64,000 nt of DNA from Drouetiella hepatica Uher 2000/2452. Lineage in GTDB: Bacteria > Cyanobacteriota > Cyanobacteriia > Elainellales > Elainellaceae. The notes beneath the pieces were generated by a model, which saw only the letters and a program-made list of their open reading frames with translations, was not told the DNA's origin and did no database searches. The number at the start of each line of letters is the position of its first letter. The first letter of the stretch is position 1. The DNA lies in the NCBI GenBank assembly GCA_019359505.1, contig JAHHHD010000022.1, positions 1-64,000 of the forward strand, in the 5' to 3' direction. Position numbers and translations under genes: made by a program. Shown here piece by piece: positions 20,706 to 59,882 of the stretch.

Positions 20706-22151
20706 TTGCCAGATCCCACCTCCCCATTTCTAGATGCCGGACGGCTGCTCGTTGATCTCCAGCGGGTCAGCGAAATTGTCCAGAGTTTTAGCGACTGTCT
20801 GGAGCCAGACGCGATCGCCAAGTGCGCCACCGATGGTCTGGTTAACACGTTTGGCTATGCTTTTGCGCGGGTGTGGCTGGTGGAGAGCGATCGCCTCCAT
20901 CTGCGGCTCGTGGCTTCGTCGGGCATGTATACCCGCATAGACGGCTCATTCGCCCGTGTGCCGATGGGAGCTTTCAAAGTAGGCAAGATTGCTCAGAACC
21001 GCATTCCGTTTTTGAGCAACCATTTGGCAGAAGAAGTCTGGGTCAAAGATCGGCAATGGGCGATCGCTCACCAGATTACGGGCTTTGCGGGCTATCCACT
21101 CCTGGTGGGCGATCGGGTGATTGGCGTGCTGGCAGTATTTAGCCATCAGCCGCTGTCATCAGAATTCCTAGAGGTTTTGCAAGGGCTATGCACCACGCTG
21201 TCGATCGTGTTGGATCATGCGACCCAGCACCAGCAAGATCGGCAGACTCAGCCAGAAACGACCCCGTTCTTATCAGAACAGTTGGCGACTTTGTTGGGTC
21301 GGGCACGCTTCAGCCTAGTAGGGACGGAGCGATCGCTGACGGATTCTCTCATCTATTTGCTGATTCGCACGGCGGAAGTGCTGCGAAACCTTAACTGCAC
21401 CTACTGCCGCCTGAGCTATGGGGAAACTCAGATTGTGCTAGAGGCAATGGTATTTCCGGAAGCTGAAAGCGCTGCCTTCAGGGGGACGGTGGCTCTAGAG
21501 GCAGCAGATGCTCTCGGAGATTTACGCTTTGCGGTTTCCTGCCTCGGAGGAACGCTCCAAATCCTCAGCGATCATAACTCGACCGTACTTCAGGTTGTTC
21601 TAGAGGTTCCGTACCCCAGCTGTTTATTGGGTTTACCGATCCGGATTCAATGCCGATCGCCCGTTCTTCAAATGGCGTTTACGCATCTCGCCTATCTAGC
21701 AGGGCTAAAAGTCTGTGGTATCGCCGATCCTACAGTGCCGATCATTACAGATGATGTGGCTCTGCCGTTAGATTCCCCCACCCAGCGGCTGCTCTGGATT
21801 GCTGATCCTACTCAGGCTTTACCCAAGGGGGCGATCGCCCAGATTGATCTATTCATTACTTCTACTCAACTTCGGGAGGCTGTCGAAGCCGTTCATCAAG
21901 GCAAAACTTGGGGCATCGCCGATCTGCCTTCAGAATCCCAAACTTTATCCGATCGGGAGCAGGAAATCTTAACGCTGCTGGCTCAGGGGTTGCGCGATCG
22001 CAATATAGCGGCTCAGCTCTACATCAGCGAACGTACCGTCAAATTTCATATCAATAACCTGCTCACAAAACTTCAGGTGCGGACACGCTGTCAGGCAATG
22101 TATGAAGTGAGTTCGAGAGGGTGGATACAGGGAGTCGGGAGTAAGCAATAG
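20706..22151 (+). CDS. GAF domain LuxR-type transcriptional regulator
   Basis: A 481-residue regulator. An N-terminal GAF domain at about residues 25-170 (KCATDGLVNTFGYAFARVWL through DRVIGVLAVFSHQPLSSEF) would bind a small molecule or chromophore; no obvious bilin-binding Cys was seen. A middle part of about 200 residues is of unknown fold. A C-terminal LuxR helix-turn-helix lies at about 411-472 (LSDREQEILTLLAQGLRDRN, then ISERTVKFHINNLLTKL). It has no receiver domain. The start is taken as TTG at 20706, the first in-frame start before the GAF helix, without a good ribosome site, so the start is uncertain. Confidence 0.88.
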   Translation: MPDPTSPFLDAGRLLVDLQRVSEIVQSFSDCLEPDAIAKCATDGLVNTFGYAFARVWLVESDRLHLRLVASSGMYTRIDGSFARVPMGAFKVGKIAQNRIPFLSNHLAEEVWVKDRQWAIAHQITGFAGYPLLVGDRVIGVLAVFSHQPLSSEFLEVLQGLCTTLSIVLDHATQHQQDRQTQPETTPFLSEQLATLLGRARFSLVGTERSLTDSLIYLLIRTAEVLRNLNCTYCRLSYGETQIVLEAMVFPEAESAAFRGTVALEAADALGDLRFAVSCLGGTLQILSDHNSTVLQVVLEVPYPSCLLGLPIRIQCRSPVLQMAFTHLAYLAGLKVCGIADPTVPIITDDVALPLDSPTQRLLWIADPTQALPKGAIAQIDLFITSTQLREAVEAVHQGKTWGIADLPSESQTLSDREQEILTLLAQGLRDRNIAAQLYISERTVKFHINNLLTKLQVRTRCQAMYEVSSRGWIQGVGSKQ

Positions 22152-22166
22152 TTTGTCCTAAAGTCT

Positions 22167-22309
22167 CAGCAGTTCTCATTGTGGATTTCATTGTGGATCG
22201 CATATCGGGAAGTTTGCGCCTGCAGGGCGCGAACTCCCCCAACAAAGCCCGAAAAAAGCCCGCCGCAGGCGGGCTTTTTTCGGGCTTTGTTTCAAAATGA
22301 GAATTACTG
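22167..22309 (+). mobile_element. MITE, type II copy 1, with 9-bp target-site duplication
   Basis: A 143-bp element with terminal inverted repeats CAGCAGTTCTCATT (left) and AATGAGAATTACTG (right; 12 of 14 pair). It is flanked on both sides by the perfect 9-bp repeat CTAAAGTCT (22158-22166 and 22310-22318). Inside lies a perfect 24-bp hairpin (22241-22264 / 22268-22291, loop GCA) and a shorter fold-back GTTTGCGCC/GGCGCGAAC. No coding capacity. A second copy, inverted, is at 59732. Confidence 0.92.
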
Positions 22310-22361
22310 CTAAAGTCTGTCACAAAGCGTTGATGGACAGGCTTTGCGGTAAAGTGGCTTT

Positions 22362-23114
22362 ATGTATGACAACGACGACTTAACGGTACTGGAAGCCGAA
22401 ATCGACCTTGATCCCCTCGACCATGTGGGGTCAGTCGATGCTGAGGAAGAAGTTGCTAGGCCCGATCCAGATGAAATGCTGGCGCTCTTGGAGTCCCCCA
22501 ACCATCAGCAGCGCATTCTGGCAACCAGAGCTTTCTGCGAACTGGAGGATCGGCGAGCCATTCCTCTGTTGATTCGGCTGCTCACCGATGCTTGCCCTCT
22601 AGTGCGGGTGAGTGCCGCCTATGGATTGGGACGTAACCCCAGCCCCACCGCCGTTGAGCCGTTGATTCAGCAGCTTAGGCAAGATTGGAATGGCTATGTG
22701 CGTAAGGGCGTAGTCTGGGCGCTGGGAAACTGCCGCGATCGCCGCTCTTTAGAACCCCTCACCGATGCCCTAAAAACCGATATCTCTGCCGTACGCCTCT
22801 GGGCGGCTAGCGCGTTGGCGCAGATGGCTGACGTGGGCTATGACTCGATGATTGCTGGCTTACCTAGGTTGATCGAAGCCCTACGCCGGGACCCGATTCC
22901 GGCAGTGCGGAGCAATTGTGCCTGGGCGATCGGTCAGATATGCCGAGAGCTGCCCTCTAACGTGATCTATGCCACGGCGATCGATGCCTTGATTGAAGCC
23001 TTTGCGGAAGACGAAGAGCTAGGCGTACGCGAAGATGCCAAGGCTGCCATGCTGAGGGTAGGCGACCCGCGCGGTTTACAAGTAATTGAGGAATTGGAGC
23101 TGGAGGGCTTTTAG
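22362..23114 (+). CDS. HEAT-repeat protein
   Basis: A 250-residue soluble protein with an acidic N-terminal extension (about 35 residues) then about five HEAT-type helical hairpins: LLESPNHQQRILATRAFCEL, AIPLLIRLLTDACPLVRVSA, AVEPLIQQLRQDWNGYVRKG, SLEPLTDALKTDISAVRLWA and LPRLIEALRRDPIPAVRSNC. Related cyanobacterial proteins include phycobilin lyase subunits (CpcE/F type) and scaffold proteins, but no lyase signature was seen, so the function is open. The ATG is the first in-frame start after MITE copy 1. Confidence 0.85.
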   Translation: MYDNDDLTVLEAEIDLDPLDHVGSVDAEEEVARPDPDEMLALLESPNHQQRILATRAFCELEDRRAIPLLIRLLTDACPLVRVSAAYGLGRNPSPTAVEPLIQQLRQDWNGYVRKGVVWALGNCRDRRSLEPLTDALKTDISAVRLWAASALAQMADVGYDSMIAGLPRLIEALRRDPIPAVRSNCAWAIGQICRELPSNVIYATAIDALIEAFAEDEELGVREDAKAAMLRVGDPRGLQVIEELELEGF

Positions 23115-31487: not shown

Positions 31488-31655
31488 GCTTCTTTCCTGC
31501 TAATTCTCTGCTTCTGGCATCCACCGTATCATCTCTCAGAATCAGTCCTCAGAATCATCCTCTGTTCCTGCAATGCAGGCAGTAATTCTTATTTTGAAAC
31601 GAAGCATGAGAAAGCCCCCCCACAATAGATCCTAAGAACTGCTGGCAGTGTAGGT

Positions 31656-59678: not shown

Positions 59679-59731
59679 TCAAATATTCTATCGCTCATCC
59701 TCGCATCCCATAAAGCTGAAGCCTCTGCTAT

Positions 59732-59851
59732 CAGCAATTCTCACTTTGAAGCAAAACCCGCAGCAGGCGGACTTTGTTCGGGCTGTATTGGGGGAGTTCG
59801 CGACCGCAAGGCGCGAACTCTCCGATATGAAATCCACAATGAGAACTGCTG
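59732..59851 (-). mobile_element. MITE, type II copy 2 (inverted), with 9-bp target-site duplication
   Basis: A 120-bp element related to 22167-22309 but inverted. Ends CAGCAATTCTCACTTTGAAG and ATGAGAACTGCTG; flanks are the perfect 9-bp repeat CTCTGCTAT (59723-59731 and 59852-59860). The inner fold-backs (GGAGTTCGCGACCG, GCGCGAACTC) are shared with copy 1; the 24-bp perfect hairpin is diverged here. No coding capacity. Confidence 0.9.
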
Positions 59852-59882
59852 CTCTGCTATCGCAACCTTTAGCCGACTCAGC

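Follow-up and report, generated by a model that had tools for sequence, protein, structure and literature searches.

The region analysed (hereafter the window) is a stretch of 64,000 nucleotides from Drouetiella hepatica Uher 2000/2452 (contig JAHHHD010000022.1, positions 1 to 64,000). Direct reading reveals a 143-bp element without genes at 22167-22309 (copy 1), bounded by terminal inverted repeats (CAGCAGTTCTCATT on the plus strand at 22167-22180 and AATGAGAATTACTG on the minus strand at 22296-22309). The 9-mer CTAAAGTCT is perfectly repeated on both sides (22158-22166 and 22310-22318; 9/9 match), in agreement to the base with the original prediction of a MITE with an intact 9-bp target-site duplication. 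Copy 1 lies between the plus-strand genes of a GAF-LuxR type regulator (20706-22151; named as in that prediction) and of a HEAT-repeat protein (22362-23114; Pfam HEAT_2, E = 1.2e-31). A gap of 15 bp separates the stop codon of the regulator gene from the element, and one of 6 bp separates it from the left duplication. No transposase ORF is present in copy 1: the sole ORF of at least 80 amino acids in this stretch is on the minus strand, measures 86 aa and extends past the element on both sides. Exact paired ends at the spacing of copy 1 occur in none of 100 dinucleotide shuffles of the window. The interior contains two hairpins, A (22207-22239, from the RNA fold) and B (22241-22291), the latter being the predicted perfect 24-bp stem, here seen to have a 3-nt loop. 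The core of hairpin B, GCCCGCC-GCA-GGCGGGC, is flanked by A6 and T6, a shape resembling a bidirectional terminator. Folded as RNA with one flanking base, copy 1 reaches -82.8 kcal/mol, whereas its shuffles average -42.1 (z = -10.4), and none of 200 is as good.

A second copy of 120 bp (59732-59851) has the same ends and is flanked by perfect repeats of CTCTGCTAT (59723-59731 and 59852-59860), so that the claim of a second insertion with the same duplication length also holds. It sits between the genes of an Rrf2-like regulator and a DnaJ-domain protein, both on the minus strand. A third copy, missed by the original prediction, is decayed and shortened (65 bp, 31580-31644) and devoid of the long hairpins; its flanks, gcaatgcag (31570-31578) and gcagtgtag (31645-31653), agree at 7/9 positions and are offset by one base. 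It occupies a divergent intergenic region with a zinc-type dehydrogenase gene on one side and a purC-like gene on the other (the ORFs around copies 2 and 3 were read by eye). All three copies are intergenic relative to the larger ORFs. At 143 and 120 bp and without a transposase gene, copies 1 and 2 have the small size (<500 bp) that characterizes MITEs, and they share with them the combination of terminal inverted repeats (here 12-14 bp) and a target duplication of fixed length (here 9 bp).

The element is also multi-copy in its host, as MITEs are: a whole-element DNA search (BLAST) returned 43 matches in about 19 places of the genome. The 12-bp end, allowing one mismatch, occurs 226 times in the 6.4 Mb of the host, versus 66 times for the reversed control. 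Two recognisable ends are found at 12 of the 17 similar host loci examined, the other five having no recognisable pair. The 9-mers flanking these 12 pairs agree at 9/9 (five loci), 8/9 (four) or 7/9 (three) positions; all 12 still reach at least 7/9 when only the ends decide the choice of pair, while none of 120 control comparisons with the flanks shifted by 10-55 bp does. The original prediction had named as refutations genome copies lacking flanking 9-bp repeats and ends foreign to any multi-copy family; the repeats were instead found at every two-ended host locus, and the ends belong to a family that is multi-copy in the host and also present in other genomes. The imperfect duplications fit an ageing family. 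One host contig (C27) also has two long members of the family, measuring 247 and 241 bp (L034 and L039), and their 9-bp flanks agree at 7/9 and 8/9 positions respectively.

When 60 genomes were searched with the whole element, three carriers emerged: the host, a congener (G003) and a genome from a different genus within the family (G006). In G006, exact 12-bp ends number 274, versus one for the reversed control, and the duplications of the 25 exact-end elements among the fetched loci agree at 9/9 (18 elements), 8/9 (four), 7/9 (two) and 3/9 positions (one). Across the class, 388 genomes were searched and 58 have paired ends at MITE spacing: 46 genomes in the range of 117-144 bp, 26 in that of 145-205 bp and 11 in that of 56-116 bp, the reversed control giving 0 throughout. 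In the 117-144 bp search alone, one end set is common to 20 of 160 genera. At least 153 exact-end elements were recovered among the matches listed, after discarding five composites. Those 153 fall into 23 interior groups that are unlinked at the BLAST threshold used but may still have remote common ancestry; 12 of the groups are singletons, two of which are too short for BLAST linkage. The duplications of the same 153 elements among the matches listed agree at 9/9 in 75 cases, 8/9 in 19, 7/9 in eight and fewer positions in 51, which leaves 102 at 7/9 or better and about a third below. Taking one element per genome from the 117-144 bp search, 28 flanks were readable: 16 at 9/9, three at 8/9, two at 7/9 and seven at 6/9 or less. 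What the family conserves is its ends and its duplication length, and the interiors vary.

IMG/VR viral contigs contained no paired ends, and no plasmid matched the host type, the G006 type or three other types; a 122-bp type from another genome (G362) has full-length matches on two Microcystis plasmids and a partial one on a Nostoc plasmid. The 13 Rfam matches were weak and none reached the gathering score. Literature searches with 12-mers derived from the ends retrieved only papers unrelated by title, and in a literature collection holding few subscription journals no title or abstract on cyanobacterial MITEs described this family.

An autonomous insertion sequence (IS) with the same ends, which the original prediction had proposed to look for, was found in G026, another genome of the host's family. 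There, end pairs occur exactly 1420 bp apart in nine copies, which provides the autonomous element with matching ends expected for a MITE. Perfect 9-bp duplications flank eight of the nine copies, and eight of the nine match the first at 1419 or all 1420 positions; the ninth has seven differences and no duplication. Translation of a copy gives a single frame of 446 codons (435 aa when started at TTG), which is open across its 446 codons in the four copies listed. The first 12 bp of the left terminal inverted repeat of copy 1 show one purine difference from the ends of this helper IS. After base 12 the IS ends diverge, into GTATGG and TTTTGG; the commonest end combination among the G006 MITEs (9 of 25) is GTATGG with TTTTGA, and the left ends in the host read CAGCAG and TTGTGG, versus CAGCAA and GTATGG.

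Relatives of the helper transposase were found at 79 loci. Among the 48 examined, 16 have 9/9 duplications, all 16 with ends beginning CAGCAATTCTCA, although the duplication itself was counted when choosing the end pair, and seven of the 16 come from one Arthrospira genome and four from one Desulfoferrobacter genome. Of the other 32 loci, some have the end but are not flanked by a duplication, and several yielded no such end. The relatives that combine the same end with perfect 9-bp duplications belong to Arthrospira sp. PCC 9108, Leptolyngbya sp. PCC 7375, Laspinema olomoucense, Pseudanabaena biceps and Desulfoferrobacter suflitae. The last of these carries a 1602-bp IS relative outside the cyanobacteria (L385-L387, L389; end CAGCAATTCTCATTTTG, perfect 9-bp duplications); its transposase has 55% protein identity and its end is strikingly conserved. 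Arthrospira sp. PCC 9108 has at least 14 IS copies (L363-L373, L396, L397, L399), with perfect 9-bp duplications at 7 of the 11 examined; at L363 the transposase frame is split into several ORFs, and none of the 14 match lengths is divisible by three.

In an alignment of 16 sequences, D127, D216/D217 and E336 are invariant and can be read as the catalytic triad. An AlphaFold2 model of the relative from Phormidium tenue (mean pLDDT 68.5, pTM 0.71; residues 335-365, which surround the catalytic E, are modelled with low confidence) has its best fold matches in Tn5 transposases (Foldseek E about 1e-9; VIA-align Z 17.4-18.2 over 344-350 residues, rmsd 5.0-5.4), those to piggyBac/piggyBat being lower (Z 11-12); searched by sequence, the PDB contained no relative of the transposase. 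The conserved D, D and E together with the Tn5-like predicted fold are features of DDE / RNase H-like transposases and, on the basis of this model, the helper is DDE-type and structurally closest to Tn5. The IS4 signature is spaced Y-(2)-R-(3)-E-(6)-K. In the helper R332-x3-E336 is present, but the Y position corresponds to the invariant G329 and a K is found at E-x7 (K344). The likeness to IS50/Tn5, of the IS4 family, lies in the predicted fold with the Z scores given above, whereas the aligned residues are just 11-13% identical, the ends differ and YREK is not conserved. Over 402 residues of the helper protein the Pfam model DDE_Tnp_1 (PF01609) scores 21.9 bits against a cut-off of 23, and it reaches E 0.01 in 7 of 16 relatives; the NCBIfam model IS4_2 scores 20.8 against a cut-off of 152, and the NCBIfam IS701 models are likewise below their cut-offs. 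A relative from Gloeothece verrucosa PCC 7822, 48% identical to the helper, is annotated as 'ISNCY family transposase'; the helper may belong to the ISMae2 subgroup of ISNCY-type insertion sequences. For the comparison with IS4, passages of PMC2266710 name the YREK motif for that family and give duplications of 8-9 bp for the IS50 subgroup, a further likeness to the helper IS.

The helper transposase was detected in 84 of the 388 genomes, and its presence is associated with that of the MITE; 25 genomes have both (odds ratio 3.5, Fisher p = 5e-5, in a test that ignores phylogeny and genome size). In 33 of the 58 MITE-bearing genomes there is no transposase match at E 1e-20, and a helper search in the host, G003 and G006, which are among these 33, detected none at that threshold. 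A missing match may correspond to the loss of the helper, to the collapse of a multi-copy IS in draft assemblies or to a search miss; the draft assembly of the host is made up of 87 contigs, and the search of G003 scored four of five candidates. At eight host loci with unpaired perfect ends, no transposase was recognisable by eye among ORFs of at least 120 codons. The description as non-autonomous holds for the element itself, and the search of the host genome gave no relative of the transposase. With no helper detected in the host, the element may have outlived it there, and the host copies are probably fossils or reliant on re-entry of the IS.

Other candidate partners were discarded. Transposases of PF01609 were considered at 12 host loci and 17 loci of G003 and G006, and at loci of 12 further genomes (30 plus 20 from a longer list); none has both ends, but this route was partly blind, as the true helper scores below the PF01609 cut-off. 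A 1239-bp candidate with ends CAGTAGATCGCA (L065) was rejected because its ends differ, and so was L187 (ends CAGAAGTGTTGAAT, 9-bp duplication), which matches an IS10-like repeat printed for Anabaena WA102 (PMC4907049). The latter locus, together with L198 and L210 of the same genome (G179), represents a separate 1176-bp IS with ends CAGAAGTGTTGAA and 9-bp duplications that matches the same Anabaena repeat.

Copy 1 is very probably a MITE whose ends can be mobilised in trans by an IS-encoded Tn5-like transposase. Transposition by a transposase with a 9-bp stagger, as originally claimed, is supported by the 9-bp duplications at many independent sites and by the IS with the same duplication length. 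The transposase, Tn5-like in its predicted structure, would bind ends of about 12-18 bp beginning CAGYARTTCTCA, synapse the two ends, excise the element and join it to target DNA at positions 9 bp apart, and it would act in trans on any DNA with two such ends. Different interiors, with two long hairpins in several groups, would have come between such ends in different lineages. The strong palindromic structure and the intergenic position of all three window copies could also suggest a non-transposing extragenic palindrome of the REP or CRISPR type, its ends and 9-bp repeats being a coincidence. Nevertheless, the 9-mers differ between the sites read and are perfect in 75 of the 153 exact-end elements among the matches listed, and the existence of a transposase-bearing IS with the same ends and the same duplication length contradicts such a coincidence, which we consider extremely improbable.

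Prokaryotic MITEs are known to be moved in trans by IS with matching ends (passages of PMC10969869). The elements described here resemble the MITEs of those passages in being short and without a transposase gene, and in their terminal inverted repeats, fixed-length duplication, hairpins and end-matched IS; they differ in that one end set extends over 20 of 160 genera, with 23 BLAST-unlinked interior groups, and in that the helper was not detected in the host. Nezha, according to a passage of PMC3049150, is also a cyanobacterial MITE with a proposed IS helper, which is ISNpu3-like. In Microcystis, a 187-nt MITE moved by ISL3 had its helper proposed via end matching (in the part of PMC11448079 that concerns it) and is thus similar in being cyanobacterial and linked to a helper by its ends; yet it is a different system, with 8-nt duplications and ends GGCTCTTCG in the same part of that paper. 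The family reported here is unusual in the breadth of one end sequence combined with varied interiors. It brings together small repeats that are spread across a class and connects them, by one strongly conserved end sequence, with a single transposase lineage; this connection yields an annotation rule for anonymous repeats, namely CAGYARTTCTCA...TGAGAAYTRCTG with a 9-bp duplication.

In 26 full-length elements of G006, hairpin A (27 pairs) is Watson-Crick in 671 of 702 cells, 62 of which are changed on both sides, and hairpin B (18 pairs) in 438 of 468 cells, 52 of them changed on both sides; these elements are not independent and come from a set that admitted imperfect ends only with a duplication. 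Single mismatches comprise 12 G-T and 17 A-C in hairpin A, and 21 G-T and 5 A-C in hairpin B. One possibility is that hairpin B was kept as a bidirectional intrinsic terminator between co-directional genes, mobility being merely its origin. The sequence of an intrinsic terminator, GCCCGCC/GGCGGGC followed by T6, is present on both strands, a terminator-like consensus match is listed on the minus strand at 22270-22258, and hairpin B is consistent in sequence with a putative terminator between the GAF-LuxR and HEAT genes. Moreover, copies 1 and 2 both lie just 3' of the stop codon of the upstream co-directional gene, and the G-T excess in hairpin B is what RNA folding of that strand would favour. 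Yet the region contains five terminator-like matches against a shuffle mean of 6.1, and is thus not enriched in them; a single outer pair accounts for 8 of the 21 G-T cells, the cells of related elements not being independent; hairpin A has no G-T excess; and copy 3, situated in a divergent intergenic region, no longer has the long hairpins. Since interiors differ between genera, a terminator would in any case not be a family-wide trait, and we regard selection of this kind as rather unlikely.

Alternatively, the hairpins could persist by DNA-level correction of one arm by the other, together with loop inversion, during replication or recombination of the palindromes, without any selection on RNA. 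In 114 Watson-Crick cells both partners depart from the commonest pair, whereas mismatched cells number 61 in total; this points in that direction, as does the lack of a G-T excess in hairpin A. Identical G006 arms also carry loops in both orientations (GAA/TTC, GTA/TAC and AAA/TTT; L074-L092, L110-L155). Conversely, the G-T excess of hairpin B on one strand does not fit, the 26 elements belong to a set in which imperfect ends required a duplication, and recombination between MITE subtypes could flip loops as well, at least one chimera being on record: the second element at L078, whose arms do not match, is made up of halves from two subtypes. On balance we give arm-to-arm correction about even chances. 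We tentatively read hairpin A as maintained by such DNA-level correction and hairpin B as possibly constrained as RNA, for instance as a terminator.

The lengths of the elements suggest a further, tentative rule, to which we give somewhat less than an even chance: among bacterial MITEs, lengths differing by whole helical turns (here 122, 131-133, 141-144, 153-154, 165 and 176 bp) would multiply best whatever the interior, because a Tn5-like transposase would have to join the ends of a stiff DNA of about 100-200 bp on the same face. Of the 102 elements with duplications of at least 7/9 among the matches listed, 73 measure 122, 130-133, 141-144 or 153-154 bp, many of them being copies within few groups. 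The modes of the interior groups with a duplication between 100 and 200 bp (n = 14) give R = 0.85 at 10.95 bp, with p = 0.0003 against uniform lengths, which is the floor of 3000 simulations, the period being near 10.5-11 bp. Distinct lengths of 100-200 bp taken without a duplication filter (n = 42) give R = 0.35 and p = 0.029, and lengths of 100-205 bp found in at least two copies give p = 0.006 with the filter (n = 12) and 0.22 without it (n = 17). With the phase fixed from the 117-144 bp elements, those of 145-205 bp with duplications (n = 7) give p = 0.76, 0.18, 0.009 and 0.003 at periods of 10.2, 10.5, 10.8 and 11.0 bp, and p = 0.13-0.49 when unfiltered (n = 15); at the same fixed phase, the 56-116 bp elements with duplications (n = 10) give no support for phasing (p = 0.21-0.87). 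Off-phase lengths in multiple copies also exist (137, 146, 148 and 182 bp), and short singletons could be post-insertion deletions, which would retain the duplication. The statistics are suggestive and, as the pattern was noticed at 117-144 bp before testing, the p-values are optimistic.

A comparable pattern is documented in Paramecium, whose IESs have a 10.2-bp size periodicity ascribed to end looping in a transpososome-like complex in passages of PMC3464196, where length-variation experiments with IS50 are also cited. The likeness lies in lengths that follow helical steps; the IESs are, however, eukaryotic excised sequences, studied in 45,000 elements, whereas the present case concerns bacterial MITEs, 102 of them with duplications. 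No title or abstract on length phasing of bacterial MITEs was found in a literature set with few subscription journals. If the length steps are real, MITE lengths would be a fossil record of transpososome geometry and a natural test of the limits that DNA stiffness and twist impose on the transposition of short elements, limits hitherto approached through the IS50 length-variation experiments and by inference from the Paramecium IESs.

Some G006 loci show how these elements lie relative to other repeats. At L078, two different MITEs are arranged in tandem with one common 9-mer (ACACTACAA-element-ACACTACAA-element-ACACTACAA), as if, to judge by this arrangement, the second MITE had inserted into the duplication of the first. 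At L140, L142 and L143 (all at contig starts) and at L086, the sequences adjoining the MITEs resemble, by eye, other long palindromes, which suggests insertion next to terminators or other repeats.
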